A stretch of DNA of 64,000 nt, from assembly GCF_024213555.1 (NCBI RefSeq), contig NZ_JANAVO010000014.1, forward strand, positions 62,001-126,000, read 5' to 3'. How positions within the stretch are numbered: position 1 is the stretch's first letter; every line of letters begins with the position of its first letter. Under the pieces are notes generated by a model. The model made no database searches and was not told where the DNA came from. It saw only the letters and a program-made list of their open reading frames with translations. Origin of the DNA: Allokutzneria sp. A3M-2-11 16 (GTDB lineage Bacteria; Actinomycetota; Actinomycetes; Mycobacteriales; Pseudonocardiaceae). The position numbers were made by a program, and so were the translations under genes. Of this stretch, positions 1 to 45,055 are shown piece by piece.

Positions 1-18605
<18,605 letters not shown>

Positions 18606-18606
<1 letters not shown>

Positions 18607-24600: not shown

Positions 24601-27600
24601 ACAACTTCTTCGACCTGGGTGGACATTCGCTGCTGGCGACGAAGCTGGTGTCGAAGATCCGCGCGGCGCTGGGTGCCGAGGTCAGCATTCGAGTCCTCTT
24701 CGAGGCGCCTTCGGTAGCCGCGCTCGCTGACCGCCTGGGACTGGCTGAGGAAGCACGCCCCGCCTTGGCCAAGCGCGAACGGCCTGAGCGCGTGCCGTTG
24801 TCCTCGGCGCAGCGCCGCCTGTGGTTCATGTACCGCTTCGAGGGTGCGTCGCCCACGTACAACGTGCCATTGGCGTTGCGGCTCAACGGTGATCTCGACC
24901 GCGAGGCACTGCGCGCCGCCGTCAAGGACGTGGTGGACCGGCACGAGAGCCTGCGGACGATCTTCCCCAGCGCGGATGGTCAGCCGTACCAACACATCCT
25001 CGACGACGCTTCGCCGGAGCTGATCGACGGTGAGATCGGCGAGCTGGACTCCGCGGTCCGCTACGCCTTCGAACTGGACTCCGAACTGCCGATCCGGTCC
25101 TGGCTGCTCAGGGACGGCGATGAGCACCTGCTGTTGGTGCTCATCCACCACATCGTCGGCGATGGCTGGTCCATGGGGCCGCTGGTCCGCGATCTGGGAA
25201 TCGCCTACGCGGCGCGGCGCGAAGGCACGGTGCCCACGTGGCAACCGTTGCCGGTCCAGTACGCCGACCACACCCTGTGGCAGCAGGAGATCCTGGGCAG
25301 CGAGGACGACTCGGACAGCGCGATCGCCAAGCAGACCGAGTTCTGGCGCACCACGCTCGCCGGGCTGCCCGAGCTGATCGAGCTGCCCACCGACCGCCCG
25401 CGTCCGGCCGTCGTCGGGTACCAGGGCGCCACCGTGCCCTTCGCCATCGACACCGAACTCCACCGATCCCTTGTGGCGCTGGCGAAGCACAGCAACGCGA
25501 GCGTGTTCATGGTGTTGCAGGCGGCGCTCTCCGCGTTGCTCACCCGGCTCGGGGCGGGCACGGACATCCCGCTCGGCACCGCGGTGGCCGGGCGGACCGA
25601 CGAGGCGGTCAACGACCTCATCGGCTTCTTCGTCAACACGTTGGTGCTTCGGACTGACACCTCCGGTCAGGTCAGCCTGCGCGAACTGCTCGGCCGCGTC
25701 CGTGAGGCCGACCTCAACGCGTTCGCCAACCAGGACGTGCCGTTCGAGCGCCTGGTCGAGGTGCTGAACCCGACGCGGTCGCTGTCGCACCACCCACTGT
25801 TCCAGGTGATGCTGACGTTGCAGAACCTCGAAGCCGCCGAGATCTCCTTCGCCGGGCTTGAGGCGAGGGCCGAGGACATCGGCACGGACGCGGCAAAGGT
25901 CGACCTGGCGTTCGCGCTGGAGGAGGACGACGACAACGGGATCGAGGGAATCCTCCGTTACTCCACGGATCTGTTCGACCATTCGACCGCCGAGCGACTG
26001 GCGCGACGCTTCGTCCGATTCCTCGCGGCCGCGGTGACCGATCCTGACCGTCCACTGTGTCTGATCGACGTCCTGGCTGACGACGAGCGGCGCGATGTGC
26101 TGGGGGATTGGAACGACTCCGCTACCCCGGTTCCGTCGTTGACCTGGCCGGAGCTGTTCGCCGAGCAGGTGCGGAAGACACCGCTGAACACGGCCGTCGA
26201 GTTCGAAGGCACCACTCTGTCCTATGTGGAGCTGGACGATCGGGCCAACCGCTTGGCGAACCGGCTCGTCGAACTGGGTGCGGGGCCGGAGAAGGTTGTG
26301 GCGCTGGCGCTTCCGCGCTCGGCGGACTTCGTCGTCGCTCTGCTCGCGGTGCTCAAGTCGGGTGCGGCCTACCTGCCGATCGACCCGGAGTACCCGGCCG
26401 AGCGGATCTCGTTCATGCTCGACGACGCCGAGCCGATCTGCGTGATCTCCGACGGTTCCCTCGCCGGTTCCACCGTTCCGCTGGTCGACCTGAGCGCGGT
26501 GCGGCTGGACTCCTTGCCCGCACAGGAACCCCAAGTGTCACGGAGTCTGGACAGCCCGGCCTACGTGATCTACACCTCCGGTTCCACGGGGCGCCCCAAG
26601 GGTGTCGTCGTGTCCCACCGGGGAATCGCGAGCCTGGCCGCCAACCAGGCGCAGCGCTACGACGCGGGACCCGGCAGCCGGGTGATCCAGTTCGTGTCGC
26701 CGAGCTTCGACGTGAGCGTGTCCGAACTGGCCCTGGCGCTGCTCTCCGGCGGTTGCCTGGTCGTCCCGCCGAGGACGTTGACCGAGCAACGCCTGGTGGA
26801 CTTCCTGCTGGAGCACCGGGTCACGCACATCCACATCCCGCCGTCGGTGCTGGCCGGGGTGCCCAGGGTGGCGCTGCCGGATCTCCGCGTGCTGATCACC
26901 GGTGCCGAGTCGGCGCCGCCGGAGCTGATCGCGTTCTGGTCCACCGGTCGCCGCATGATCAACGCGTACGGCCCGACCGAGGCCACCGTGGACGTTGCGT
27001 CGTGGATCTGCGAACCGGGCTCGGAGCAGCCGGTCCCGATCGGTTCGCCGATCGCCAACGCCCGGGTGTACGTGCTCGACAGCGCGCTGCGCCCGGTCCC
27101 GCCGGGAGTGGTCGGCGAGCTGTACACGGCCGGTTTCGGCCTAGCACGGGGATATCTGCGTCGCCCCGGCCTGACCGCGGAGCGCTTCGTCGCCTCGCCG
27201 TTCGCGCCAGGGGAGCGGATGTACCGCACGGGCGACCTCGTCCGGTGGCGGGCGGGGAGCCTGGAGTTCGTCGGCCGCGCCGACAACCAGGTCAAGCTCC
27301 GCGGGCTGCGCATCGAGTTGGGCGAGGTGGAGTCGGCCCTCGCCGCGCATCCCGCCGTCGCGCACACCGCGGTGGTGGTCCGCGAGCAGCGGCTCGTCGG
27401 ATACGTTGTCCTGACTGAGGATGTGACCGTCGCCGAGCTGCGTGCCCACGTGGCCGACTCGGTCCCGGCGCACATGGTGCCGTCCGCCGTGGTGGTGCTG
27501 GACGCGATCCCGTTGACCCCCAACGGGAAGGTCGACCACCGGGCGCTGCCCGTCCCCGGTGCCGTCGTCGATGAGGGCCGAGGTCCGCGTTCGCTGCGCG

Positions 27601-28574
27601 AGGAAGTCCTTTGTGGACTGCTCGCGGAGGTGCTGGAGCTGCCCAAGGTCAGCATCGACGGGAACTTCTTCGAGCTGGGCGGACACTCGCTGCTGGCGAT
27701 GCGCCTGACGAGCCGGATCGCCGACGTGCTCGGCCAGGAGCTCGCGGTGCGCACGATCTTCGAGGCGTCCACTGTGGCCGAGCTGGCCACTCGCCTCGAC
27801 GCGGCTCAGGACGAGACCAGCACACTGCTTCCCTTGCGCACCAAGGGCGATCGTGCGCCATTGTTCTGTGCGCACCCGTCGCTGGGGCTGAGCTGGTGCT
27901 ACTCCGGCCTGGTCCAGCAGCTCGACGACAGCTATCCGATCTACGGCCTCCAGGCGCGTGGTCTGGACGGCTCCGGCGAGCTTCCGGAGTCGCTGCAGGA
28001 CATGGCGAGGGACTACATCGAGCAGATGCGCACGGTCCAGCCGCACGGCCCGTACCACCTGCTGGGCTACTCGATCGGCGGCAACATCGTGCACGCCATC
28101 GCGACCGAGCTCCAGGACCAGGGTGAGGAGGTCGGGCTGCTCGCCGTGCTCGACGCCCGACCCGGCGACCCGGCCCAGCCGGAGCCGATCGAGACGCAGC
28201 GCCCGCTCACCGCGAAGGACGTGCTGTCGCGGATGAGCGCCGACGCGGGCGGCTCGGACGCCGACGACGAGGCGGGGCAGCGGGCGAAGGCGATGGGCCT
28301 GCTCGCCGAGTCCATGGGCGGCCGGGCCGACGAGCACCAGCTCGACGTGATGATCAACAGCATCCGGGTGGTGACGAGCCATCGGCCCGCGGTCTTCAAG
28401 GGCGAGCTGACCCTGATCGTTTCAGACCAGGGCGGCGACGTGCTCGAACGCGCGTGGGCGCCCTACGTGGGCGGCGACGTCGAGGTGACCGTGATCGACT
28501 GCGGCCACCACGACCTCCTCCTCCCCGCCCCGCTCTCCCGCATCGCGAAAACCATCGCCCACCGCATCACCTGA
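18606..28574 (+). CDS. Nonribosomal peptide synthetase, C-A-T-C-A-T-C-A-T-TE (terminating)
   Basis: About 3322 residues. I chose the ATG at 18606, which overlaps the upstream stop (TGATG), because GGGAGA lies 7 bases ahead; a GTG at 18603 is the alternative. Order: C (18640-19880), A (19930-21410), T (GGHSL at about 21523), C (21690-23000), A (23040-24510), T (about 24620), C (24780-26080), A (26120-27560), T (about 27675), TE (27830-28570). The first C has [15 protein letters not shown], a DCL signature that fits the E domain ending the preceding protein. The specificity strings I read are DVWHFGLIDK (Ser-like), DLTKVGEVGK (Asn) and DVSHIGAVDK (unassigned). The TE has GYSIGG as nucleophile elbow and a C-terminal CGHHDLL histidine. 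It releases or cyclises the finished peptide, so this is the last synthetase in the line. Confidence 0.97.
18640..21650 (+). other. NRPS module 7: C-A-T, Ser-like code, possibly diaminopropionate
   Basis: The A domain has [10 protein letters not shown] at about 20375. The specificity string is DVWHFGLIDK. Known Ser codes (DVWHLSLIDK type) differ mainly at position 301, where this domain has Gly instead of Ser. The cluster encodes SbnA/SbnB for L-2,3-diaminopropionate and no other A domain here looks suited to it, so Dap is the inferred substrate, with Ser as alternative. Confidence 0.6.
21690..24750 (+). other. NRPS module 8: C-A-T, predicted asparagine or hydroxyasparagine
   Basis: The A domain has [10 protein letters not shown] at about 23491 and NEYGPTETT at about 23880. 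The code DLTKVGEVGK is one conservative change from the asparagine code DLTKLGEVGK. An AsnO/VioC-like hydroxylase is encoded at 41775, so the incorporated residue may be 3-hydroxy-Asn. Confidence 0.8.
24780..28570 (+). other. NRPS module 9 with thioesterase: C-A-T-TE, unassigned code, candidate chlorotryptophan
   Basis: The A domain has [10 protein letters not shown] at about 26578 and a specificity string DVSHIGAVDK that I cannot match with confidence. It is the only intact A domain left without a substrate when the halogenase product is considered, so 5-chloro-Trp is a candidate. The TE (27830-28570) keeps the GYSIGG serine, an Asp region ([10 protein letters not shown]) and a terminal His. 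Confidence 0.55.
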
Positions 28575-28877: not shown

Positions 28878-29654
28878 ATGTTCGAGTCCGACAGGCTCCA
28901 CGTCGAGTCCCCGTTCGTCCGGCGCGCGCGCCGCCCCAACCGGCGCGTGCGGCTGTTCTGCTTCCCGCACGCGGGGGCGGGGGCGAGCAGCTTCGCCGAC
29001 TGGCCGAGCATGCTGCCGCCCGAGGTGGAGCTGATCGCCGTCCAGTTGCCCGGCCGCGAGGACCGCGTCGGCGAGTCGCCGTTCCTGCGCATGGAGATCA
29101 CCGTGCGCACGGTCGGCTTGGCGCTGCGGCCGTACCTGCAGGGCCCGTGCGCGTTCTTCGGGCACAGCGGCGGCGCGCTGCTCGCGTTCGAGCTCGCCAG
29201 GGCGCTGCGCAAGCGCGGCATGGAGCCGAACCACCTGTTCCTCTCCGGCCAGCCCGCCCCGGATCTTCCGGCCGTCGTGCCGAACATCCACGGCCTGCCG
29301 GACGAGGACTTCCGCAAGGCGCTGCACCTGCTGGGCGGCATGTCGGCGGACGTCGTCAACGACGACGAGCTGATGAAGGTGCTGCTTCCCTCGCTGCGCG
29401 CGGACTTCACGCTCTGGGAGACCTACCGGTACCAGGCGCAGCCCAAGCTCTCCGCGCCGATCACCGCGCTCGGCGGCGACGCCGACGACCGGGCGCCGAT
29501 CTCGACGCTGGAGGCGTGGCGCGAGCACACCACCGGCGCTTTCGCCAGCCGTGTGTTCCCCGGCGGGCACTTCTACCTCAACGACGTCGGCGTCGACCTG
29601 ACCGAGACGATCGGTTCCGCGCTGCTGCGCCGCGAGTCGGCGCACGCCAAGTAG
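28878..29654 (+). CDS. Type II thioesterase (editing)
   Basis: 258-residue alpha/beta hydrolase of the GrsT/RifR family. These enzymes remove stalled or wrong acyl groups from carrier domains of the assembly line in the cytoplasm. Visible motifs are CFPHAGAGASSF (residues 28-39), the nucleophile elbow GHSGG with Ser97, and the C-terminal catalytic GGHFYL. Length is typical. It sits between the terminating synthetase and the acyl ligase-KR-T gene, 12 bases upstream of the latter, so it is probably cotranscribed with what follows. The palindromic element upstream may separate it from the NRPS message. Confidence 0.93.
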   Translation: MFESDRLHVESPFVRRARRPNRRVRLFCFPHAGAGASSFADWPSMLPPEVELIAVQLPGREDRVGESPFLRMEITVRTVGLALRPYLQGPCAFFGHSGGALLAFELARALRKRGMEPNHLFLSGQPAPDLPAVVPNIHGLPDEDFRKALHLLGGMSADVVNDDELMKVLLPSLRADFTLWETYRYQAQPKLSAPITALGGDADDRAPISTLEAWREHTTGAFASRVFPGGHFYLNDVGVDLTETIGSALLRRESAHAK

Positions 29655-29666
29655 GAGGTTCGACGG

Positions 29667-32600
29667 ATGTCCGGAGACGACGGCATCGGCGCCGACGTGC
29701 TCGCCGAGCTGCGTGCGGCGGTCGAGGCGGTTCCCGCCGTGGAGACCGCGATCCCGTTGCTGCGCCACGAGGCCAAGCTCGACCGAGCCCGGCACCTCGG
29801 GGACACCGAACGCCAGGAGTCGGCGGGCCCCAAGGCGGACGTCGAGAACTCGACCGTGCTCGCCGAGGCGTTCGGCGGCGAACTGGTGCTGGAGCCCGGA
29901 TATCCCACCACGCTCCAGGAAGCGCTGCGGCTCGCGGCGGAACTGGCTCCGGAGAAGGGAACCCGCTACGTCTCCGCGGACGGCAGCGAGGTCTTCCAGA
30001 GCTACCCCCAGCTGCTCAGCGACGCGCAGAGCGTCCTCAGTGGACTCCGCGAGACCGGCATCCAGCCCGGCGAATCGGTGCTGTTCCAGTTCGCCAGCAA
30101 CAAGAACTTCGTCACCGCGTTCTGGGCCTGCGTGCTGGGCGGCTACCTCCCGACCCCGGTCGGCGCCGCGCCCGGCTACGACAGGGACAACGCGGTGACG
30201 CAGAAGCTCCGCAACGCGTGGGAGCTGCTGGGCAAGCCGTTGATCCTCACCGACGAGCGACTCGCCGACGCCGTGCGCAAGCTGCCATCGCTGTGGGGTG
30301 TCGAGGACGTTCGCGTTGCGGCGGTTGAAGAACTGGCCGGTGCCGAGGACACCGACTGGTTCCCCGCCACCCCGGACAGCCCCGTCGTGCACCTGCTCAC
30401 CTCCGGCAGCACCGGTGTGCCCAAGTGCGTCCGGCACCCCAGCCGCACAATTCTGGCCCGTACCAAGGCAACCGCGCTGGCCAACGGCTTCGACGAGAAC
30501 GACGTCGCGCTGAACTGGATGCCGTTGGACCACGTGGGCGGCATCGTCATGTACAACGTGCGTGACGTGATCCTGCGTTGCCAGCACGTCAACGCCGAGA
30601 TCGAGGCGTTCCTCTCCGAGCCGTTGCGCTGGCTGGACTGGACCGATCGCTACGGCGCCACCAACACATGGGCGCCGAACTTCGCGTTCGCGCTCGTCAA
30701 CGAGCAGGCCGCGGCGATGAAGGGCCGCACGTGGGACCTGAGCACGTTGCGCCACATCTGCAATGCCGGTGAGGCCGTGGTCAGCCGCACCGCGGAGCGC
30801 TTCATCGAACTGCTCCGGCCGCACGGGCTGCCCAACGGCGCCATGCGGCCGTGCTGGGGGATGTCGGAGACCAGCTCCGGCGTCACCTACTCCACGATGC
30901 CCGCCGACGACCCCGTCGAGGGACGACTGTGGGTGGACAAGGACTCGCTCGCCGGGCCGCTGCGCCTGCTGGACGCCGGTGACCCGGAGGCGATCACCTT
31001 CACCGAGGTCGGCCCACCGATTCCCGGGGTGCGCCTGCGGATCGTCGACCACGAGAACATCGTGGTGCCGGAGGACCAGGTCGGCCGACTCCAGATCACC
31101 GGCCCGACGATCATGAACGGCTACTTCCGCAACGACGAGGCCAACGCCGAGGCGTTCACCGAGGACGGCTGGTTCAACACCGGCGACCTGGCGTTCCTGC
31201 ACGAGGGCCGGTTGACGATCACCGGTCGCGAGAAGGACCTGATCATCATCCAGGGCGCCAACTACCTGAACTACGACCTTGAGTCCATTGTGGAGCAGGT
31301 AGACGGCACCGAGGTCACTTACGTCGCCGTGTGCGGATATTCGGGTGCCGGCAACGACACCGACAAGCTCGTGGTGTTCTTCGTCCCCACCGACGACGAC
31401 GTGCACACCACGATCGCGGCGGTGAAAGCCCGGCTGGCCCAGGAGATCGGGCTCCAGCCGGACCTCGTGATCCCGGTGGAGCGCGAGCGCTTCCCCAAGA
31501 CCAACAGCGGCAAGATCCAGCGCAACCAGCTCGTCACCGACCTCGACAACGGGGCGTTCGACGAGTGGCTGCGAGAACTGGAAATCGCCGAAGAGTCCGA
31601 ATCCACACTGCCCGCGTGGTTCTTCGAGCGCACCTGGATTTCATCTGCCAGCCAGGTCGCAGGAGCGCTTCCCCCGGGCCCGTGGCTGGTCTTCGACGCG
31701 GACGGCCTGGCGGTGCGGCTCGCGGCGCACCCCGATGTGCCGGAGCTGATCGTCGTCGCCGAGGGCGAGGACTACGTCCAGGTGCTCGGTGAGCGGCGGG
31801 TCGGCGCGGTGCTGCACGGCTGGAGCCTCACCGACAACGACCTGGAGTCCGGTGCGCTGTCCGTCGCCGGGGTGCTCAGAACCCTTGCTGCCCAAGGAAG
31901 TCAGGCTTCCCTGCTGGTGCTGACCGGGAACGGTCTGTGGGCGCGGTCGGGCGACGGGGTCGACGTGCTCAAGTCCACGTTGCCCGGACTCGTCCGGACC
32001 GCCGCCATGGAGCGCGTGCTTCCCTTGGTGCGCCAGGTGGACGTCGACTCGGCGAACTGCGCCGACGCGATCGTCGCGGAGCTTTCCTCGCCGGACGGCG
32101 AAGACCTGGTCGCTTACCGCGATGGAAAGCGTCTCGTCGCGCGGCTGCGCCCGGTCTCGCTCGGCGATGCCGATGAGCAGCCCGCCGCGCTCAAGGCCGG
32201 TGGCCGGTACCTGCTCACCGGTGGGCTCGGCGGCATCGCGTACGAGATCGCCGAGTACCTGCTCGCCGCGTACCAGGCGAAGCTCGTTCTGGTCGGCCGC
32301 AGCGAGGTCGACGAGAACGGTGACGACGAGAAGGCGGAACGCCTCGCCGACCTCAAGATGCTCGGCGAGGTCGAGTACCACGCCGTCGATGTCTCCGACG
32401 CCGACGCGCTGAGGGCCGCACTGTCCACTGTAGAGCTTGATGGTGTGCTGCACCTGGCGGGCGCCGACGTCTCGCACCAGTGGAGCAGCCTGGAAGACCA
32501 CGCGGTCGCGAACGAGACGACCGAGGGCTACCTGGATGCCTACCGCGCCAAGGTGAACGGCACCCTGGCCATCGCGGAACTGCTGCGCGACCGGCCGGAC

Positions 32601-33377
32601 ACCCTGCTGGTGCTGTTCTCCTCGGTCAACGGCGACTTCGGCGGAAGCTCCTTCGCCGCGTACTCCTCGGCCAACAGCTTCCTCAACGGTTTCGCCGACC
32701 ACTGGGGCCGCGAGCTCGGCCGCCCGGTGCACTGCCTGGCGTGGAGCATGTGGACCGGCATCGGGATGAACCAGGGCAGCCCCGCGGCGGCGGCCGCCTC
32801 GCGCGGATTCCGTTCCATCAGCGGGGCGCAGGGCCTGGCGTCGTTCCTCACCGCGCTGTCGCTGGACCGCGTGCACCTGCTCATCGGGCTCGACGGCCGC
32901 AACGAGCACATCGTTCGCGTGCTCGATCCCGGAGAGCTTCGTGCCGCCGAGGTGATCGTCGCCTACACCGGGACTGCGGGGGCGCAGGACGTGCGCGCGG
33001 CGGTTTCCGCTGTGGCGCGCGGAGTTCCGGTGCCCGTGCGCTACCTGGCGGTGCCGGATTTCCCGGTCGGCGCGGACGGTTCGATCGACGCTGAGCAGCT
33101 GCTGGCCGACGCCGTCGCGGAGCTCGCGCGGGGCGGAAGGCGTTACGTCGCACCGGCTACGGACCTCGAACGGAAGCTCGCAGTGCTGTGGCGGGAAGTT
33201 CTCGGCAGCGGTGAGGTCGGGCGCGAGGACCGCTTCTTCGACCTCGGCGGCAGCTCGTTGCGCGCGGCGCAGCTGGTGGCGCGCATCAACGGGACGGTGT
33301 CCTCGCGGATGTCCGTGCACCACCTCTACGAGCACCCCACCATCGGCCAGCTCGCCGAGCTGCTGGAACAGAGCTAG
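29667..33377 (+). CDS. Free-standing acyl/amino-acid ligase - ketoreductase - carrier protein
   Basis: 1236 residues after a clear AGGAGG. The N-terminal two thirds is an AMP-forming ligase with [10 protein letters not shown] and the run [12 protein letters not shown]. To my recollection this resembles the starter ligase of bacillaene-type PksJ proteins more than an amino-acid A domain. A PKS-type KR follows, with the TGGLGGIA dinucleotide motif, a Lys (YRAKVNGTL), Ser ([13 protein letters not shown]) and Tyr (AAYSSANSF); the active site looks complete. A T domain ends the protein ([11 protein letters not shown]). There is no KS, C or TE. In the PksJ family the ligase loads an alpha-hydroxy or alpha-keto acid and the KR can reduce an alpha-keto group. 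By inference this protein makes a carrier-bound alpha-hydroxy acyl unit, as chain starter or for delivery to an A-less module. Confidence 0.85.
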
Positions 33378-35572: not shown

Positions 35573-38500
35573 ATGGGAGCCCGGGACTTCTGGCAGAGCG
35601 TGCTCGGGGCAGCCGGGTTCACCGCGCTTCCCCGCTGGACAGCGCTCGTCGACGCGCCCGCCGGGATCGCGGAGCACGAGGTCGCGCTCACCGCGCCGCC
35701 GTCCCCGGCGCAGCTGCTTGCCGCGCACGCCAAGGTGATCAGCGCGCTGAGCGGTGAGTCCGAGGTCCTGACCGGTTACGTCCCCAGTGGACACATCGGA
35801 GCACCCCTGCCCTGCGCGATCGCGGTCGGCGGCACGTGGCCCGAGTTGGTCGCCCAGGCGGACAAGGCCGCCAAGGACGTCGCGGCGCACGCGGCGGAGC
35901 CGTTCACCGGTGACGCCTTCGAAGTGGTGCTCGGCGAGAGCGCTGAGCTGCCGGAGAACGTCGTCCTGTGGGTGTCCGAAAAGGACGGTCAGCTGCGACT
36001 CCGCTACCGCACAGAGGCTTTCGACGCCGACCACGTCGCCCGGATCGCCGGGTACTACCGCACCGCGCTGGACCTGCCCGAAGCCGTGAGCCTGCTTTCC
36101 CACGAGGAGCTGGACTTCCAGTTCGACGGTCTCGCCGGGCCGGAGCGCGAGCTGCCCGACCGCCGTTTCCACGAGCTCTTCGAGGACCGCGTCCGCCAGC
36201 ACCCCGACACGATCGCCGCGGTGCACGGTGACCGCAGCTGGACCTACGCCGAACTGAACGGCCGCGCCAACCGCATCGGCCGAGCCCTGCGCGCGCGCGG
36301 ACTGACCTCGCAGGACGTCGTCGCCGTTGTCACCGAACGGAACCTGGACTGGCTGGCCTCGGTCCTGGCGATCTTCAAGGCGGGCGGCGGGTACCTCCCG
36401 ATCGAGCCGCACTTCCCGTCCGACCGCATCGCGAAGACCTTGACCAGGGCCGGGTGCACGTTCGTGCTCACCGAGCGGGGGAGCACCGCAACCCTCGACG
36501 GCGCAACGGAAAACAAGATCTACCTCGACGAGGTCTACGCCGAGGACCACGACGACAGCGACCTCGGTATCGCGGTCGGCGAGGACGACCTCGCCTACAT
36601 CTACTTCACCTCGGGTTCCACCGGCGAACCCAAGGGCGCCATGTGCGAACACGCGGGCATGCTCAACCACCTCTACGCCAAGATCGACGACCTCGGGATC
36701 ACCGAGGGCAGCGTCGTCGCGCAGATCGCGCCGCAGTGCTTCGACATCTCCTTGTGGCAGCTGGTTTCCGCGCTCCTCGTCGGCGGTCGCACGGTGCTCG
36801 TCGAGCAGGAGGCGATCCTGGACGTCGAGCGCTTCGTGCGCCTGGTCTCCAACGGCGTGGACGTCATGCAGGTCGTTCCGTCCTATTTGGAGGTTGTCCT
36901 CTCCCACCTGGAGGAGCACCCCGGCGACCTCGGTCGGCTGCGCTGCGTTTCGGCCACGGGTGAAGCTCTCAAGAAGGAGCTGACCGAGCGCTGGTTCGCC
37001 GCGTTCCCGGGCATCAAGCTGGCCAACGCCTACGGGCTCACCGAGACCTGTGACGACACCAACCACGAGGTGATGGACCGCGCGCCCGAGCGCGAGCGGG
37101 TTCCCTTGGGGCGCGCGGTGAACAACGTGCGCGTGTACGTGGTGGACGACAACCTCAACCCGGTTCCGCTGGGTTCGCCCGGCGAGATCGTCTTCTCCGG
37201 CGTGTGCGTCGGTCGCGGCTACATCAACGACCCGGAGCGCACCGCGGCGGCCTTCCTCACCGACCCGCACCGGGAAGGGGAGCGACTCTACCGCTCCGGT
37301 GACTTCGGCCGCTGGCTGCCCGAGGGCAAGCTGGAGTTCCTGGGGCGCCGCGACGCGCAGGTCAAGATCCGCGGTTTCCGCATCGAGATCGGCGAGATCG
37401 AGAACCGCCTGCTGGGCGTCGCCGGGGTGCGGGACGCGGCGGTCGTCGTCGCCGAGTGGCCCGATCGCGGCAAGACCCTGGTGGCCTACTACTCCACCTC
37501 CGAGAACTCCACAGCGCTTTCCGCGGACGAGCTGCGCGAGCACCTCGCCGCCGAGCTGCCGGAGTACATGGTGCCCAGCCACTTCCACTCGCTGGAGTCG
37601 TTGCCGCTGACCGGAAACGGCAAGATCGACAAGAAGAAGCTGACCGCCGCCGCGTCGGAGCTGAAGGTCGACGACATCGTCGAGGCGCCGCAGAGCCCTA
37701 CCGAGCTGCGGATCGCCGCGGCGTGGGCCGACGTCCTCGGCGTCGCACCGGAGAAGGTCGGCCGGGGCAGTCACTTCTTCAACTCCGGCGGCACTTCGCT
37801 GTCCGCGGTGCGCCTGGTGGTCAAGCTGGAGCGCGCGGTCTCGCTCAAGGAGCTGACCCGGACGCCGGTGCTCGCCGACCTGGCCGCGTTCATCGACGGC
37901 AAGCGGCAGGAGAGCACCGGCCTGCTCCAACCACTGTCCACTGTGGATGGAGCGGCTACCACACTGATCTGCTTCCCCTACGCGGGCGGCAACGCGGTGA
38001 ACTTCCAGCCGCTGGCCACCGCGCTGGCGGGCAGCGGGATCGCCGTGCACGCCGTCGAGCTGCCCGGCCACGACCTCTCCGCGCAGCGCGAGCCCTTCGC
38101 CGAGGCCGACCAGGTCGCCAAGGCCGTCGTCGCCGAGATCGCCCAGCGCGGGATCGGCCCGGTGCTGCTGTGGGGCCACTCCTCCGGAGCCGCGCTCGCG
38201 GTGCTCACCGCGCGCCTGCTGGAGGAGCAGAACCACGACGTGCGCCAGGTTTTCGTTGGCGCGCAACTGGTTGGCGAGATCGGCGACCGCGAGAGCTTCA
38301 CCGCGACGATCACCGCGCTGAGCGACCTGGAGATCACCGCGCGGCTCAGCGGCGACAGCGCCTACACCGAGCTCGGCGGCCTCGACACCGAGCGCGCCGC
38401 ACTGGTCGGCGCCGCCTACCGGCACGACGTCGTTGTGGCGAACCGGTTCTTCGTCGCCGCACACGAGGAGAGCACGAAGCTGGCAACGCCGCTCACCGTC

Positions 38501-38695
38501 GTGGTCGCCGCCGACGACAAGGCGACCGAGGGCCACGGGCGCGAGAGCGGGAAGTGGCCGCTGCTGGCCGAGAACGTCGAAGTGCGCGAGCTGGCGGAGG
38601 GCGGGCACTACTTCCCGCGCACCCGACCGGCGGAGACCGCGGCCGTGATCAAGGCCGTAAACGAGTTGTGCAGCAACGGGAAGGGACGACTGTAA
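35573..38695 (+). CDS. Free-standing NRPS protein: C-domain remnant, A, T, thioesterase
   Basis: 1040 residues. Residues 1-190 resemble the C-terminal half of a condensation domain but have no HHxxxDG. The A domain has FTSGSTGEPKG, NAYGLTETCDDT and NGKIDKKKL, with code DIWQSTADDK, which I cannot assign. The T domain is unusual: FFNSGGTSLSAVRL. The last 240 residues are a thioesterase with CFPYAGGNA, GHSSG and GGHYF, more like external type II thioesterases than cyclising TE domains. The next gene, overlapping by one base, is a SyrP-like oxygenase. The organisation matches systems in which an amino acid is loaded on a separate A-T protein, hydroxylated there, and then released or moved to an A-less module. 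Start chosen at ATG 35573 behind GGAGGG. Confidence 0.9.
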   Translation: MGARDFWQSVLGAAGFTALPRWTALVDAPAGIAEHEVALTAPPSPAQLLAAHAKVISALSGESEVLTGYVPSGHIGAPLPCAIAVGGTWPELVAQADKAAKDVAAHAAEPFTGDAFEVVLGESAELPENVVLWVSEKDGQLRLRYRTEAFDADHVARIAGYYRTALDLPEAVSLLSHEELDFQFDGLAGPERELPDRRFHELFEDRVRQHPDTIAAVHGDRSWTYAELNGRANRIGRALRARGLTSQDVVAVVTERNLDWLASVLAIFKAGGGYLPIEPHFPSDRIAKTLTRAGCTFVLTERGSTATLDGATENKIYLDEVYAEDHDDSDLGIAVGEDDLAYIYFTSGSTGEPKGAMCEHAGMLNHLYAKIDDLGITEGSVVAQIAPQCFDISLWQLVSALLVGGRTVLVEQEAILDVERFVRLVSNGVDVMQVVPSYLEVVLSHLEEHPGDLGRLRCVSATGEALKKELTERWFAAFPGIKLANAYGLTETCDDTNHEVMDRAPERERVPLGRAVNNVRVYVVDDNLNPVPLGSPGEIVFSGVCVGRGYINDPERTAAAFLTDPHREGERLYRSGDFGRWLPEGKLEFLGRRDAQVKIRGFRIEIGEIENRLLGVAGVRDAAVVVAEWPDRGKTLVAYYSTSENSTALSADELREHLAAELPEYMVPSHFHSLESLPLTGNGKIDKKKLTAAASELKVDDIVEAPQSPTELRIAAAWADVLGVAPEKVGRGSHFFNSGGTSLSAVRLVVKLERAVSLKELTRTPVLADLAAFIDGKRQESTGLLQPLSTVDGAATTLICFPYAGGNAVNFQPLATALAGSGIAVHAVELPGHDLSAQREPFAEADQVAKAVVAEIAQRGIGPVLLWGHSSGAALAVLTARLLEEQNHDVRQVFVGAQLVGEIGDRESFTATITALSDLEITARLSGDSAYTELGGLDTERAALVGAAYRHDVVVANRFFVAAHEESTKLATPLTVVVAADDKATEGHGRESGKWPLLAENVEVRELAEGGHYFPRTRPAETAAVIKAVNELCSNGKGRL

Positions 38696-39702
38696 TGGTG
38701 TCGCCGATTGACACGGACGCCTTCGCCGGTCTCAACGGCCGCGCGGAGGAGGGCAAGCCCGCCATCGTCGAGGTGAGCGGTGTCGCCGACGCGGCCGAGT
38801 GGGCCGCGCAGAACCGAGGGGCGCTGCACCACGTCGTCGCCCAGCACGGCGCCGTTCTGGTGCGGGGCCTCGGACTTCGCGACGCCGCGGGCGCCGGGGC
38901 GGTGCTCAAGGCGCTGGCCACCGACCTGATGGCCGAGCGCGAGGCGTTCGCGCCGCGGTGGAGCTACGAGGAGGGCGTGTACTCGTCCTCGAAGTGGCCG
39001 CCGAACCAGCCGATGTGCATGCACCACGAGCTCAGCTACGCGCTGGACTTCCCCGGCATGATGCTCTTCGCCTGCCTCAGCGCGCCCACCGACGGCGGTG
39101 CCACCGCAGTGTCGGAGTCCGCGAAGGTGCTCGCCGCGCTGCCCGCGGACCTCGTCGAGCGCTTCGAGCGCGAGGGCTGGCTGCTGACCCGCAGCTACAA
39201 CGACGAGATCGGCGTCCCGTGGTCGGAGGCGTTCGGCACCTCCGACAAGGCCGAGGTCGAGAAGTACTGCGCCGACAACGGGATCACCTTCGAGTGGACC
39301 GCCGACGGCGGCCTGCGCACCACGCAGCGCCGCTCCGCGGTGATCAGCCACCCGGCGCACGGCGAGAAGCTGTGGTTCAACCAGATCGCCTTCCTCAACC
39401 AGTGGACGATGGCCCCCGAGGTGCGCGAGTACCTGGTCGACGTCTACGGCCAGGACGGCCTGCCGTTCAACACCCGCTTCGGCGACGGCGACGAGATCAC
39501 CGAGGACATCGTGCAGGTCATCAACAAGACCTACGACTCGGTGACGCTGCGCGAGCCGTGGCAGGCCGGTGACCTGATGCTGGTCGACAACCTCCGGATG
39601 GCGCACAGCCGGGAGCCCTTCGACGGCCCCCGCGAGGTGCTGGTGGCGATGGGCTACCCGGTCCGGCTCGCCGACTGCTCGCCGACCGCCCCGCTCGCCT
39701 GA
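38695..39702 (+). CDS. Fe(II)/2-oxoglutarate oxygenase, SyrP/TauD type (probable beta-hydroxylase)
   Basis: 335 residues, starting at an ATG that overlaps the A-T-TE stop (TAATG). The iron ligands are visible as H110 and E112 in MHHELSY and H304 in RMAHSREPF; the 2-oxoglutarate-binding arginine is probably R313. The family includes SyrP and the KtzO/KtzP hydroxylases, which hydroxylate the beta carbon of amino acids attached to carrier domains. The tight coupling to the A-T-TE gene suggests that its substrate is the aminoacyl group on that T domain. Free-amino-acid hydroxylation cannot be excluded. Confidence 0.88.
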   Translation: MVSPIDTDAFAGLNGRAEEGKPAIVEVSGVADAAEWAAQNRGALHHVVAQHGAVLVRGLGLRDAAGAGAVLKALATDLMAEREAFAPRWSYEEGVYSSSKWPPNQPMCMHHELSYALDFPGMMLFACLSAPTDGGATAVSESAKVLAALPADLVERFEREGWLLTRSYNDEIGVPWSEAFGTSDKAEVEKYCADNGITFEWTADGGLRTTQRRSAVISHPAHGEKLWFNQIAFLNQWTMAPEVREYLVDVYGQDGLPFNTRFGDGDEITEDIVQVINKTYDSVTLREPWQAGDLMLVDNLRMAHSREPFDGPREVLVAMGYPVRLADCSPTAPLA

Positions 39703-39728: not shown

Positions 39729-40757
39729 ATGTCCCAGCACGTCCCCACCTTCTCGGTGATCTCCGGTGGCCAGGTGCAGCGCGCGCTGGCCGGCCAGGAG
39801 AAGCCCGTCACGGAGCTCATCGAGGCCGCCTACAAGGTGCACGGCGCCGGAGACACGGTGAACCCGCCGTCGTACTTCCTGCGCTTCCCCGACCGCCCGT
39901 CCTCGCGCATCATCGCGCTGCCCGCCTCGATCGGCGGCGGGGTCGGCGTCGACGGGATCAAGTGGATCTCCAGCTTCCCGGAGAACGTCGCCGCCGGGCT
40001 GCCGAGGGCCTCCGCGGTGCTGATCCTCAACGATCAGGCGACCGGATATCCCTTCGCCTGCTTGGAAAGCTCCATCATCAGCGCCACCCGCACCGCCGCG
40101 TCCGCGGTGCTGGCCGCCGACTGGTTCACCAGGGAGCGCGGCCGCCCGCCGCGGATCGGTTTCATCGGCACCGGGCTGATCGCCCGCTACATCCACACCT
40201 ACTTCGCCGGGACCGGCTGGTCCTTCGACGAGGTCGGCGTGCACGACCTGTCCGCCCAGCACGCGGAGGGCTTCCGCGAGTACCTGGAGCGCTCCGGCGA
40301 GACCGGCCGGATCACCCTGCACGCGGGCGCGGAGGAGCTGATCCGCTCCTCGGACCTGGTGGTGTTCGCGACCGTGGCGGCGACCCCGCACGTGACCGAC
40401 CCCGCCTGGTTCTCGCACAACCCGTTGGTGCTCAACGTTTCCCTGCGGGACATCTCCCCGGAGATCGTGCTGGCGTCGACCAACGTCGTCGACGACGTCG
40501 AGCACTGCCTGAAGGCGAACACCTCGCCGCACCTGGCCGAGCAGCTGGTCAGGAACCGCGACTTCCTGCACGGCACCCTGGACGACGTGATGGCGGGCCG
40601 GGTGGACCTGCCCGCCGATCGTCCGCTGGTGTTCTCGCCGTTCGGGCTCGGCGTGCTCGACCTCGCGGTCGGCGCGCACGTCTACGAGCAGTTGCGCCGC
40701 GCCGGTGAGCTCACCGTCGTCGACGACTTCTTCCACGAACTGCGCCGCTACGGCTGA
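39729..40757 (+). CDS. sbnB: SbnB-like NAD-dependent dehydrogenase (2,3-diaminopropionate synthesis)
   Basis: 342 residues of the ornithine cyclodeaminase/mu-crystallin family, with the dinucleotide motif GFIGTGLIARY near residue 141. In staphyloferrin B synthesis SbnB oxidatively cleaves N-(1-amino-1-carboxyethyl)-Glu, made by SbnA, to L-2,3-diaminopropionate and 2-oxoglutarate. The gene lies 13 bases upstream of the SbnA homologue, the usual pairing, which makes this role much more likely than true ornithine cyclodeamination. It supplies Dap to the assembly line, probably to module 7. Confidence 0.92.
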   Translation: MSQHVPTFSVISGGQVQRALAGQEKPVTELIEAAYKVHGAGDTVNPPSYFLRFPDRPSSRIIALPASIGGGVGVDGIKWISSFPENVAAGLPRASAVLILNDQATGYPFACLESSIISATRTAASAVLAADWFTRERGRPPRIGFIGTGLIARYIHTYFAGTGWSFDEVGVHDLSAQHAEGFREYLERSGETGRITLHAGAEELIRSSDLVVFATVAATPHVTDPAWFSHNPLVLNVSLRDISPEIVLASTNVVDDVEHCLKANTSPHLAEQLVRNRDFLHGTLDDVMAGRVDLPADRPLVFSPFGLGVLDLAVGAHVYEQLRRAGELTVVDDFFHELRRYG

Positions 40758-40770
40758 GGAGGTGGGGAGC

Positions 40771-41775
40771 GTGCCGATCATCTCCGAGCCGCAGGACTTC
40801 CACCAGGACGACCTTTTCGTCGACCTGGAGGGGACCTTCGGCCGCAGGCTCTACCTCAAGTGCGAGGGGTTCAACTTCGCCGGCTCGATCAAGCTCAAGG
40901 CCGCCAGGGAGATGATCGAGGCGGCCGAGCGCAGCGGCGCGCTGCGCCCCGGCACGATCCTCGTCGAGTCCTCGTCGGGCAACCTGGGTGTGGCGCTGAG
41001 CATTCTGGCCGCCAGCAAGGGGTATGAGTTCCTGTGCGTGACCGACGCGCGCTGCAACCTCGCGACCAAGCGGCTGATCGAGACCCTCGGCAGCCGGACG
41101 CACACGATCGTCGAGCCCGACGCCGACGGCGGTTTCCTCGGCGCGCGCCTGCGGTACGTGCGTGAGCTGTGCGAGTCCGACGACCGCTACCTGTGGCTCA
41201 ACCAGTACGCGAACCCGGCGAACTGGAAGGCCCACTACCGGTGGACCGCGCCCGCCATCGCCCGCAACTTCCCCGACCTCGACGTGCTCTTCCTCGGGGC
41301 GGGGACCACGGGAACCCTGATGGGGTGCGCGCGGTACTTCAAGGAGCACCACCCCGGTGTCACCGTCGTGGCGATCGACGCCGTCGGCTCGGTGACCTTC
41401 GGGTCCCCCGCGTTGCCCAGGATGATTCCCGGCCTGGGCACCGGAGTTCGCCCACCACTGCTCGATGTGTCCTATGTGGACCATGTAGTGCACGTCCCGG
41501 AGATCGACACCATCCGGGCGTGCCACCGCTTAGCCCGCAAGGGTTTTCTGTTCGGCGGCTCCACAGGGACCGTGGTCAGCGGCGCGATGCGCTGGCTGGC
41601 GGAGTTCGCGCCAGGTGGTGACCCGACCACCGTGGCGATCGCCCCCGATCTCGGGGAGCGGTACCTGGACTCGGTGTACCAGCGCGGTTGGGTCGAGGAG
41701 ATCTACGGACCCGAAGCGCTCGACCTCGACCACGAGGAGACAGTGACGATGCTGCAATCGATGGGTAGTGCGTGA
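40771..41775 (+). CDS. sbnA: SbnA-like PLP enzyme (O-phosphoserine + Glu condensation for diaminopropionate)
   Basis: 334 residues of the cysteine synthase fold. The GTG at 40771 is chosen because GAGGAGGTGGGGA precedes it; an upstream start at 40705 would run into sbnB. The PLP lysine is K41 in FAGSIKLK, and the substrate loop SSSGNLG follows near residue 72. SbnA replaces the phosphate of O-phospho-L-serine with the amino group of Glu, giving the substrate of SbnB. Its stop overlaps the next gene by one base (TGATG). Confidence 0.92.
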   Translation: MPIISEPQDFHQDDLFVDLEGTFGRRLYLKCEGFNFAGSIKLKAAREMIEAAERSGALRPGTILVESSSGNLGVALSILAASKGYEFLCVTDARCNLATKRLIETLGSRTHTIVEPDADGGFLGARLRYVRELCESDDRYLWLNQYANPANWKAHYRWTAPAIARNFPDLDVLFLGAGTTGTLMGCARYFKEHHPGVTVVAIDAVGSVTFGSPALPRMIPGLGTGVRPPLLDVSYVDHVVHVPEIDTIRACHRLARKGFLFGGSTGTVVSGAMRWLAEFAPGGDPTTVAIAPDLGERYLDSVYQRGWVEEIYGPEALDLDHEETVTMLQSMGSA

Positions 41776-42761
41776 TGTCTGTAACCGTTGACGTGATGAG
41801 TGCGGCGCCGCAGGTGGTGTCGCTGACAGAGACCGAAGCCGCCGCGGTGACGGAGATCGCCATCGGCCTGCTGGGGGTCGCGGGCGGCGTGATCGACGAT
41901 CCCGAGTGGGTCGCGGCCGCCCGGGAGGCGTGGGACGAGCTGCCGGTCACCGTCCGCAGGTCGATCCGCCGGTTCCGCAGGGACTCCGGTCCACAAGGGA
42001 CTCTGCTGCTGCGTGGCCTGCCAGTCGGCCTGGACACCCTCGGTGACACGCCGATGGTCGCGGGCTCGGTGCAGCGCCAGGCCACGGTCGGTGCCGCCGT
42101 GCTGGCGATGGTCGCCTCCGGCCTCGGTGACCCGGCCGCGTTCCGCCCGGAGAAGACCGGCGCCCTCGTGCAGGACGTGGTTCCGGTGCCCGGCAAGGAA
42201 ACCTTCCAGGGCAACGCGGGTTCGGTGCTGCTGTCGTTCCACAACGAGAACGCCTTCCACGAGCACCGCCCGGACTACGTGATGCTGCTGTGCCTGCGCT
42301 CGGACCACGAGGGCATCGCGGGCCTGCGCACCGCCTGCGTCCGCCAGGTGCTCGACCTGCTCAGCCCGCGCAGTCGAGAAGCCTTGTCCCGCGCGGAGTT
42401 CATCACCGAGGCGCCTCCGTCCTTCGGTGAGGGCAACAAGCCCGTCGCGCACGCCGTGCTCTCCGGTGCGCCGGACGATCCCGACCTGCGGGTGGACTTC
42501 GCCGCCACGCAGCCCCAGACCGAGGCCGGTTCGGCCGCACTGGTGGAGCTCGGCGAGCTGTTCGAGCAGACGTCGACCAGTTCCGCTCTGACGCCGGGGG
42601 ATCTGGCGATCGTGGACAACCACGTGACCGTGCACGGGCGGACCGCGTTCACGCCGCGCTACGACGGACGTGACCGGTGGCTCCAGCGGACGTTCTCCCT
42701 GACCGGGCTCCGGCGTTCGCGCGCGTCCCGGCCGGAGGACGGCTACGTCCTGGTGGACTAG
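41775..42761 (+). CDS. Fe(II)/2-oxoglutarate oxygenase, AsnO/VioC type (probable Asn 3-hydroxylase)
   Basis: 328 residues from ATG 41775; the adjacent GTG at 41772 is an alternative. H156 and E158 in FHNENAFH and H287 in DNHVTVHGRTAF are the iron ligands, and the Arg-rich stretch DGRDRWLQR binds 2-oxoglutarate. The DxFTPRxDGRDRW tail layout is that of AsnO and VioC, clavaminate-synthase-like enzymes that hydroxylate free Asn or Arg at C3. Module 8 carries an Asn code, so Asn is the likely substrate. This is the last gene of its transcription unit: a strong terminator begins 14 bases after the stop. Confidence 0.87.
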   Translation: MSVTVDVMSAAPQVVSLTETEAAAVTEIAIGLLGVAGGVIDDPEWVAAAREAWDELPVTVRRSIRRFRRDSGPQGTLLLRGLPVGLDTLGDTPMVAGSVQRQATVGAAVLAMVASGLGDPAAFRPEKTGALVQDVVPVPGKETFQGNAGSVLLSFHNENAFHEHRPDYVMLLCLRSDHEGIAGLRTACVRQVLDLLSPRSREALSRAEFITEAPPSFGEGNKPVAHAVLSGAPDDPDLRVDFAATQPQTEAGSAALVELGELFEQTSTSSALTPGDLAIVDNHVTVHGRTAFTPRYDGRDRWLQRTFSLTGLRRSRASRPEDGYVLVD

Positions 42762-42908: not shown

Positions 42909-44545
<1,637 letters not shown>

Positions 44546-44548
44546 ACC

Positions 44549-45055
44549 GTGACTGCCGCACCGGTTTCCCGCGACGTCACGGCGGCGGGGCAGTTCCGCG
44601 ACCTGATGAGCGCCTTCCCCAGCGGGGTCTCGGTCATCACCGCCGTTGACGCGGACGGCGCACCGCACGGGATGACCTGCACGTCGCTGACCAGCGTCGC
44701 GGCCGACCCGCCGACGCTGCTGGTGTGCCTGAACCTGCGCAGCGGGACGCTCGCCGCGATCCGGGACAGCGGTGGCTTCGCGGTGAACCTGTTGCACAGC
44801 AAGGGAAAGCGCGCCGCCGAGCTGTTCTCCTCCGCGGCGCCGGACCGGTTCGGCCGCCTGCCGTGGCGGCCCTCGGCCCAGGTCGGCGCGCCGCTGCTGG
44901 TGGAGGACGCCTTCGCCACGGCCGAGTGCGTCGTCGCCGACACGCACGTCTCGGAGGACCACGCGATCGTCATCGGCAGGGTGGTCGACATCGTCCAGCG
45001 CGAGGACGATCCGCTGCTCTACGGCTTCCGGAGCTTCTCCTCCTGGGAGCGCTGA
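44549..45055 (+). CDS. Flavin reductase partner of the halogenase
   Basis: 168 residues of the HpaC/FMN-binding split-barrel family, with the conserved FPSGVSVITA start, GMTCTSLTSVAADPP and a C-terminal YGFRSFS. It reduces FAD with NAD(P)H and passes free FADH2 to the halogenase. Starting at a GTG 3 bases after the halogenase stop, it is surely cotranscribed. It appears to be the last gene of the peptide cluster. Confidence 0.92.
   Translation: MTAAPVSRDVTAAGQFRDLMSAFPSGVSVITAVDADGAPHGMTCTSLTSVAADPPTLLVCLNLRSGTLAAIRDSGGFAVNLLHSKGKRAAELFSSAAPDRFGRLPWRPSAQVGAPLLVEDAFATAECVVADTHVSEDHAIVIGRVVDIVQREDDPLLYGFRSFSSWER

Follow-up and report, generated by a model that had tools for sequence, protein, structure and literature searches.

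Which enzyme charges the carriers of a peptide synthetase whose modules have no adenylation domain of their own, and with what? The question is raised by a 64,000-nucleotide stretch of Allokutzneria sp. A3M-2-11 16 (contig NZ_JANAVO010000014.1, positions 62,001 to 126,000; called the window below, position 1 being its first letter and negative positions lying upstream), in which such a synthetase is followed by a free-standing protein with adenylation (A), carrier (T) and thioesterase (TE) domains, here called the loader (35573–38695), and by a TauD-type oxygenase (38695–39702). We consider it likely, if well short of certain, that these genes belong to a supply cassette for L-2,3-diaminopropionate (L-Dap) which feeds modules M2, M3, M5 and M6 of the synthetase by way of the loader, the residue being modified by the oxygenase and handed from carrier to carrier. 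A first-pass annotation of the same DNA had proposed a trans-loader for several vacant positions, and comparison with other genomes supports this part of its model, vacancies and loader being shared by seven clusters.

In the sequence of events that we propose, SbnA and SbnB would make free L-Dap, as their families suggest; the loader's A domain would activate Dap and place it on the loader's own carrier, to judge from its specificity code, motifs and neighbours; the oxygenase would oxidise the carrier-bound Dap, as its regular partnership with the loader and one A-T-oxygenase fusion suggest; and the aminoacyl group would pass to the carriers of M2, M3, M5 and M6, which are conserved and have no other supplier nearby. 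Transfer would probably be carrier to carrier, the fused TE being not strictly needed and more likely a helper or editor. The predicted outcome is the same residue four times in an 11-residue product, around one threonine.

Vacant modules and a stand-alone loader

The first synthetase, which begins at -3737 outside the window, comprises eight modules and the second one three. With condensation (C) and epimerase (E) domains included, the latter assigned by position, the plan of the first half is M1 A-T, M2 C-(remnant)-T-E, M3 C-T, M4 C-A-T, M5 C-(remnant)-T and M6 C-(decayed A)-T, and that of the second half is M7 C-A-T, M8 C-A-T-E, M9 and M10 C-A-T and M11 C-A-T-TE. The vacant modules, and the parts of the synthetases next to them, are as follows.

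1–18, plus strand: end of the T domain of vacant M2 (C -1832 to -531, A remnant -566 to -234, T -164 to 18)
103–1401, plus strand: C-family domain after the T domain of M2, read as an epimerase from its position and the motif HHLVVDG
1510–3045, plus strand: vacant M3, C (1510–2754) joined straight to T (2854–3045) without an A domain
6304–8316, plus strand: vacant M5, C, remnant of the C-terminal subdomain of A (7741–8052), T (8125–8316)
8374–11046, plus strand: vacant M6, C, decayed A (9892–10782), T (10855–11046)
18603–28574, plus strand: second synthetase, M9–M11 with terminal TE, no vacancy

The decayed A domain of M6 is without the P-loop motif, has lost its Asp and has Arg in place of the catalytic Lys, and the C and T domains of M3 were matched as one stretch in 7 of 7 genomes searched. 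All of M2 except the last 18 positions of its T domain lies upstream of the window; the vacant carriers number four and not three as first annotated, and what were called modules 1, 3 and 4 are indeed vacant, if correctly M3, M5 and M6 when counted from -3737. The codes DFWNIGMVHK (M4), DAWTVAAVCK (M7 and M8) and DLTKVGEVGK (M10) are taken by us to specify threonine, an aromatic residue and asparagine, respectively.

The same plan with its four vacancies recurs in seven clusters, namely those of the window, G021 (Kutzneria viridogrisea), G053b, G203 (Saccharopolyspora subtropica), G200 (Streptomyces sp. TRM49041), G201 (Streptomyces californicus) and G202 (Actinoplanes sp. KI2), which span the five named genera Allokutzneria, Kutzneria, Saccharopolyspora, Streptomyces and Actinoplanes; the contig of G202 stops inside the M6 carrier, so that three vacancies are counted there, M1 is cut in G203, and the assembly line is split across two contigs in G200–G202. 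The extent of the A remnants varies among these lineages. An assembly artefact was considered as the cause of the vacancies and rejected, because seven clusters share them and their remnants are eroded differently, and we regard the four vacancies as genuine.

Vacant C-to-T steps make up 34 of 110 in 13 loader-linked clusters (the seven above with G001, G002a, G067, G108_2, G058 and G078) as against 2 of 59 in 14 control loci, hand-picked among lower-scoring matches of the same search, and both control steps without an A domain have about 775 amino acids of other sequence between C and T. G078 was counted although SbnA and SbnB were not seen there at the thresholds used; the count excludes G024, G029 and G125 as well as the records NBC01351 and NBC01431, their loaders being without close SbnA/SbnB or part of a larger synthetase. 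A module was called vacant where the A model was covered under 75%, so that the distribution of the P-loop motif, found in 76 of 76 loaded and 0 of 34 vacant modules, follows partly from the definition; the pattern for the catalytic-lysine motif was found in 57 of 76 and 0 of 34, respectively. The carrier serine is present in all 34 vacant T domains. The vacancies probably arose more than once beside the loader, because the vacant label changes at least eight times on a tree of the C domains, four of these changes being forced by well-supported branches, in a tree built by a quick method with two vacant rows on very long branches.

The loader itself is a single open frame of 1040 amino acids.

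35573–38695, plus strand: loader with truncated C half, A, T and type II-like thioesterase (profile matches, code DIWQSTADDK)
about residues 1–180: truncated C half
36212–37630: A domain
37715–37888: T domain
about 37940–38692: type II-like thioesterase

Its Pfam matches come in the order AMP-binding (273 bits), PP-binding (37.5) and Thioesterase (72), the free-standing A-T-TE arrangement of PacP, and no damage is seen in the GGTS motif of the carrier or in GHSSG and GGHYF of the thioesterase; frame, domain order and motifs together bear out the A-T-thioesterase protein of the first-pass annotation. So does the sequence bear out its one-base overlap with the next gene, the final A of the loader's TAA (38693–38695) being the first letter of the oxygenase's ATG at 38695. 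A C-A-T-TE module that shed half its C domain is the probable ancestor of the loader, because the loader's approximately 180 N-terminal residues align with the C-terminal half of a condensation domain and are without HHxxxDG (hhalign probability 99.1%). Its carrier serine is kept in 96 of 98 aligned rows. Apart from the loader's, no stand-alone A domain of the amino-acid type was found in the 124 kb of the contig that were scanned, other contigs not having been searched exhaustively.

Probable substrate and proposed oxidation on the carrier

The loader's substrate is most likely L-Dap, as its code and the adjoining genes together indicate.

38695–39702, plus strand: Fe(II)/2-oxoglutarate oxygenase of the TauD family, the loader's usual partner (Pfam TauD, 136.7 bits)
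39729–40757, plus strand: SbnB-type enzyme of L-Dap synthesis (TIGR03944, 417.9 bits, cut-off 326.9)
40705–41775, plus strand: SbnA-type enzyme of L-Dap synthesis (TIGR03945, 383.8 bits, cut-off 349.95)

SbnB and SbnA lie directly downstream of the loader-oxygenase pair and both exceed the cut-offs of their NCBIfam equivalog models; the SbnA frame overlaps SbnB, and its true start may be further in. These two genes and the AsnO-type gene after them continue the operon and went unused in the first-pass annotation. SbnB is present in the stretches examined at 17 of 21 loader loci, drawn from the top matches in 200 relatives (the genomes given G numbers here). The code DIWQSTADDK, of the diamino-acid type, was read at code positions placed by motif anchors in 83 of 98 aligned loader rows, the window's included and three of the 98 being fragments without a readable code (80 of 95 when L080/G001, L094/G021 and L108/G004 are each counted once). 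The string was not found in the open-access literature searched.

The HxE...H motif of the oxygenase and an Arg downstream of it, which we take to be metal and co-substrate positions, are invariant, and the enzyme is probably active because they are so in 101 of 101 aligned rows; the HxE argues against a halogenase. With SyrP-type enzymes it shares the TauD family, HxE...H with Arg and a place beside a loading unit, a likeness of motif and setting, and it differs in a predicted substrate that is Dap and not Asp. Of the SyrP-like hydroxylase making a beta-hydroxy amino acid that had been annotated here, the TauD oxygenase with its HxE...H stands, whereas the product was drawn too simply, code and neighbours pointing to Dap. 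The oxygenase accompanies the loader in the stretches examined at 20 of the 21 loader loci, and in G067 the A and T domains are fused with it in one protein without a thioesterase, which is suggestive of action on a carrier-bound residue. Desaturation or oxidation to an aldehyde would be alternatives to hydroxylation, and a search of the open-access literature for hydroxylated Dap gave off-target text only.

The same cassette of four genes, encoding the loader, the oxygenase, SbnB and SbnA, stands beside A-less Pls-type polymerases too. The full set, with a Pls-type polymerase half, was found in 59 of 80 loci, these being the best 80 of 508 relatives (named genomes searched with the oxygenase alignment), and part of the remaining 21 are interrupted by contig ends; the search was led by the oxygenase and therefore gives no measure of the other genes in loci that lack it. 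The one polymerase half tested, that of L083, scored 863.5 bits with TIGR02353 (cut-off 423.1), others were found by tblastn to the copy of G002b, and most show a T and no A in a domain scan. Here, just as in the window, the loader would need to deliver to a carrier that belongs to a different protein. The five-gene set is seen in many actinobacteria, comprising most of L081–L159, and at about 13.2 kb of L086 a minus-strand synthetase with a bare C-T step adjoins a gene set of the polymerase type.

Several observations weigh against this assignment of substrate and oxidation. Two Dap codes share 80% identity with diaminobutyrate codes (PMC12283262), and the loaders of G024, G029, G125, G078 and NBC01351, which stand beside other gene sets, carry the identical code without close SbnA/SbnB. 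By itself the code therefore does not distinguish Dap; it fits 2,3-diamino acids generally, and Dap rests on the neighbours. In place of SbnA/SbnB, NBC01351 has genes for a pyridoxal-phosphate enzyme, an argininosuccinate-lyase-like protein and an ATP-grasp protein, perhaps an alternative route to a 2,3-diamino acid. No vacant module is seen by eye in G029, where loader and oxygenase are both present. On chemical reasoning beta-hydroxylated Dap is a hemiaminal, which should lose ammonia unless its nitrogen is acylated or carbamoylated. Finally, 4 of the 80 loci (L127, L133, L135 and L142) pair oxygenase and polymerase half with another A-type protein, of code DASVATMRSK by motif anchor, and are without loader, SbnA and SbnB; these perhaps use another monomer.

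Possible routes to the vacant carriers

In the first-pass annotation the fused thioesterase is an acyltransferase that takes a beta-hydroxy amino acid off the loader and delivers it to the vacant modules. SyrC and LgnA are examples of such a role. Several features fit. The window's TE has an undamaged Ser-Asp-His triad; its closest solved match is ObiF1, with type II thioesterases next; by sequence it is of the type II kind to which LgnA belongs (PF00975, ObiF1 scoring above the type II enzymes) and not an inactive TE of the PacP kind with a lost triad, the Ser, Asp and His motifs being present; and the loaders of all seven four-vacancy clusters bear a TE (G200/L109, G201/L126, G202/L151 and G203/L129 among them). 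LgnA itself, a type II thioesterase, takes Thr from an A-T protein and places it on a C-T unit (PMC8748450). Across the wider set, however, the TE is missing in 35 of 98 loader rows (33 of 95 without the three duplicates; the script counted 34 of 98, to which we added G067, its fused oxygenase having been misread as a thioesterase), and within the window's own genus the loader of G002a has a TE and that of G001 has none. Ser is the usual nucleophile where a TE is present; it is replaced by Cys in G078, G125 and NBC01351, and in G029 by Glu. The fused TE appears not to be a general transferase, because it is absent in so many rows, among them G001 with a module plan identical to that of G002a; it may be helpful in the four-vacancy clusters. 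What speaks for the annotated role, an undamaged triad in the window and a TE in all seven clusters, stands against these absences, and we hold an acyltransferase role to be doubtful.

A separate enzyme might stand in where the fused TE is lacking. In the eight whole genomes holding ten TE-less loader loci, a Pfam thioesterase search with matches listed to E 1.3e-4 gave a linked stand-alone thioesterase (same contig, within 100 kb) at only one of the ten, that of G067, 13 kb from the loader, which is a further point against an acyltransferase; the remaining linked matches are terminal TEs of synthetases (G001, G058, G108_2 and G067). Each of the eight has at least 7 to 37 thioesterase matches overall, and an unlinked helper is possible. 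A second model, run on the stretches around the 35 TE-less rows, matched only those terminal TEs (also in L080, which is G001) and, weakly, the stand-alone gene of G067. Release of the free acid by the thioesterase followed by re-activation on the main line was rejected, since none of the vacant modules has an A domain that could still work.

A close alternative, though in itself somewhat unlikely, is that the A domain of the loader charges the vacant carriers directly. It would then do so in trans, the loader's own carrier serving the oxygenase only or being a relic; CmnA-A1 of capreomycin does so with L-Dap (PMC12400406), and since no TE is called for, the TE-less relatives are consistent with it. 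Against this, the loader's carrier serine is kept almost throughout, and direct charging would bypass an oxygenase acting on that carrier. We think it very improbable that the vacant modules are filled in cis by A domains of the same synthetase, or skipped, with the loader supplying something else: assembly lines that use one of their A domains iteratively are known (PMC12400406), but every vacant module keeps its carrier serine, the same loader accompanies vacancies scattered over the C-domain tree, and the M7 code changes between clusters while the vacancies stay. That the oxygenase acts on another residue of the chain, and not on the loader's carrier, is distinctly unlikely. Many carrier-bound hydroxylases of the TauD type act on Asp or other residues; beside the polymerase halves, however, the oxygenase stands with the loader and the Dap genes and no other activated residue among the identified genes, and in G067 it is fused to A-T. 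Asn hydroxylation is already covered by AsnO; the oxygenase as source of beta-hydroxy-Asn was judged unlikely because an AsnO-type enzyme is encoded in the same operon. Passage of carrier-oxidised Dap from the loader to the vacant carriers is thus the reading that we prefer.

Trans-loading of A-less modules is established, for L-Dap included (PMC8748450, PMC12400406), and two positions per loader have been proposed (PMC8748450). That one unit should serve several positions was called unusual in the first-pass annotation; it is so, but not without precedent, having been shown for capreomycin and proposed for rotihibin. The amino acid of PacP is reportedly 2,3-diaminobutyrate. PacP of pacidamycin is an A-T-TE0 tridomain protein which passes its aminoacyl group to a separate carrier (PMC8748450); the loader has the same three-domain order, and differs in its undamaged TE triad, in facing four acceptor modules in one synthetase and in having the oxygenase and Dap genes in its operon. 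CmnA-A1 loads L-Dap in trans onto the A-less CmnI (PMC12400406), the same principle of one A domain charging an A-less module with L-Dap, but it sits in a chain module and serves two carriers, whereas the loader stands alone and faces four. In the legonindolizidine system (LgnA, LgnB and LgnD) a type II thioesterase shuttles between a stand-alone A-T protein and a C-T acceptor, and WS9326A and rotihibin are related systems, a shuttle of two Thr units being proposed for the latter (PMC8748450); in the window the TE is fused, about a third of relatives being without it, and the amino acid, the four acceptors and the oxygenase partner are different. The poly-Dap synthetase of Streptomyces albulus PD-1, of the Pls/PosA family, shares the Dap monomer and SbnA/SbnB-type synthesis (PMC4668381, PMC10522769) and unites A domain and polymerase in one protein, whereas most loci related to the window's have an A-less polymerase half, a separate loader and an added oxygenase. 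The excerpts of PMC8748450, PMC12400406, PMC4668381, PMC10522769, PMC12283262 and PMC12858407 hold no counterpart of one stand-alone, oxygenase-coupled loader for four positions. No matching product was found in the open-access literature on the producer genera and lipopeptides (including the excerpted PMC12858407), a coverage too narrow to call the product unreported.

Possible mobility of the cassette, and neighbouring genes

In a loader tree (FastTree, 91 rows after six duplicates or fragments and one short row were dropped) the four-vacancy loaders fall into more than one group. The G021 loader groups with that of G053a, which lies beside a carrier-bearing gene of polymerase-half size (SH-like support 95), and the window's loader has its nearest relatives in one-vacancy clusters of the same genus. 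This pattern fits a plug-in unit that has apparently changed context, with the reservation that single-gene trees of this kind can mislead. We tentatively put forward, as a possibility that we rate a little below even, that a portable cassette is shared by membrane polymerases and synthetases, that synthetases acquiring it let several of their own A domains decay, that the loader has been exchanged between the two kinds of machine, and that four positions of the lipopeptide depend on a single supply of carrier-oxidised Dap. No Pls/PosA-type gene was noticed in the window's cluster. Elsewhere in the same genome are two Pls/PosA proteins (G000:C11:3051043-3053022 and 740589-742604), with open frames of 1374 and 1352 amino acids, long enough for an A domain of their own.

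If our proposal is correct, one small gene set feeds the same unusual residue into up to four positions of one assembly line and serves synthetases and polymerases of different kinds. Transplanted into other pathways, it could be used to install a cationic residue, and a vacant module beside the cassette would predict Dap, helping to interpret many clusters. It would also raise the enzymological question of what an Fe/2-oxoglutarate oxygenase makes of carrier-bound Dap.

The genes surrounding the cassette and synthetases are listed below.

-4774 to -3782 (L003:15226–16218), minus strand: ornithine-carbamoyltransferase-like gene, below the cut-off for true ornithine carbamoyltransferase
28878–29654, plus strand: stand-alone thioesterase, type II by position and size (PF00975, 166.5 bits)
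29667–33377, plus strand: fatty-acyl-AMP-ligase-like (FAAL), ketoreductase and carrier protein (domain matches)
41772–42761, plus strand: AsnO-type free-asparagine beta-hydroxylase (399.7 bits to asparagine oxygenase 2og5)
43001–44545: tryptophan-halogenase-family flavoenzyme (Pfam, 484.9 bits)
44549–45055: flavin reductase, directly after the preceding gene

The AsnO-type enzyme would fit the asparagine code of M10. The protein at 29667–33377 is a likely lipid supply, and its FAAL-ketoreductase-carrier pattern recurs in the other four-vacancy clusters; despite it, the first synthetase opens with A-T and has no starter condensation domain.

The ornithine-carbamoyltransferase-like gene diverges from the first synthetase just upstream of the window. 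Copies 70.5–73.2% identical stand at the start of the first synthetase in five other four-vacancy clusters, G203 being left out of this comparison, and none was found at E 1e-25 in the other loci examined. Capreomycin-type pathways carbamoylate Dap, and it may be speculated that a ureido group on Dap would stabilise its hydroxylated form. The flavoenzyme and flavin reductase suggest halogenation or another flavin-dependent oxidation of the product.

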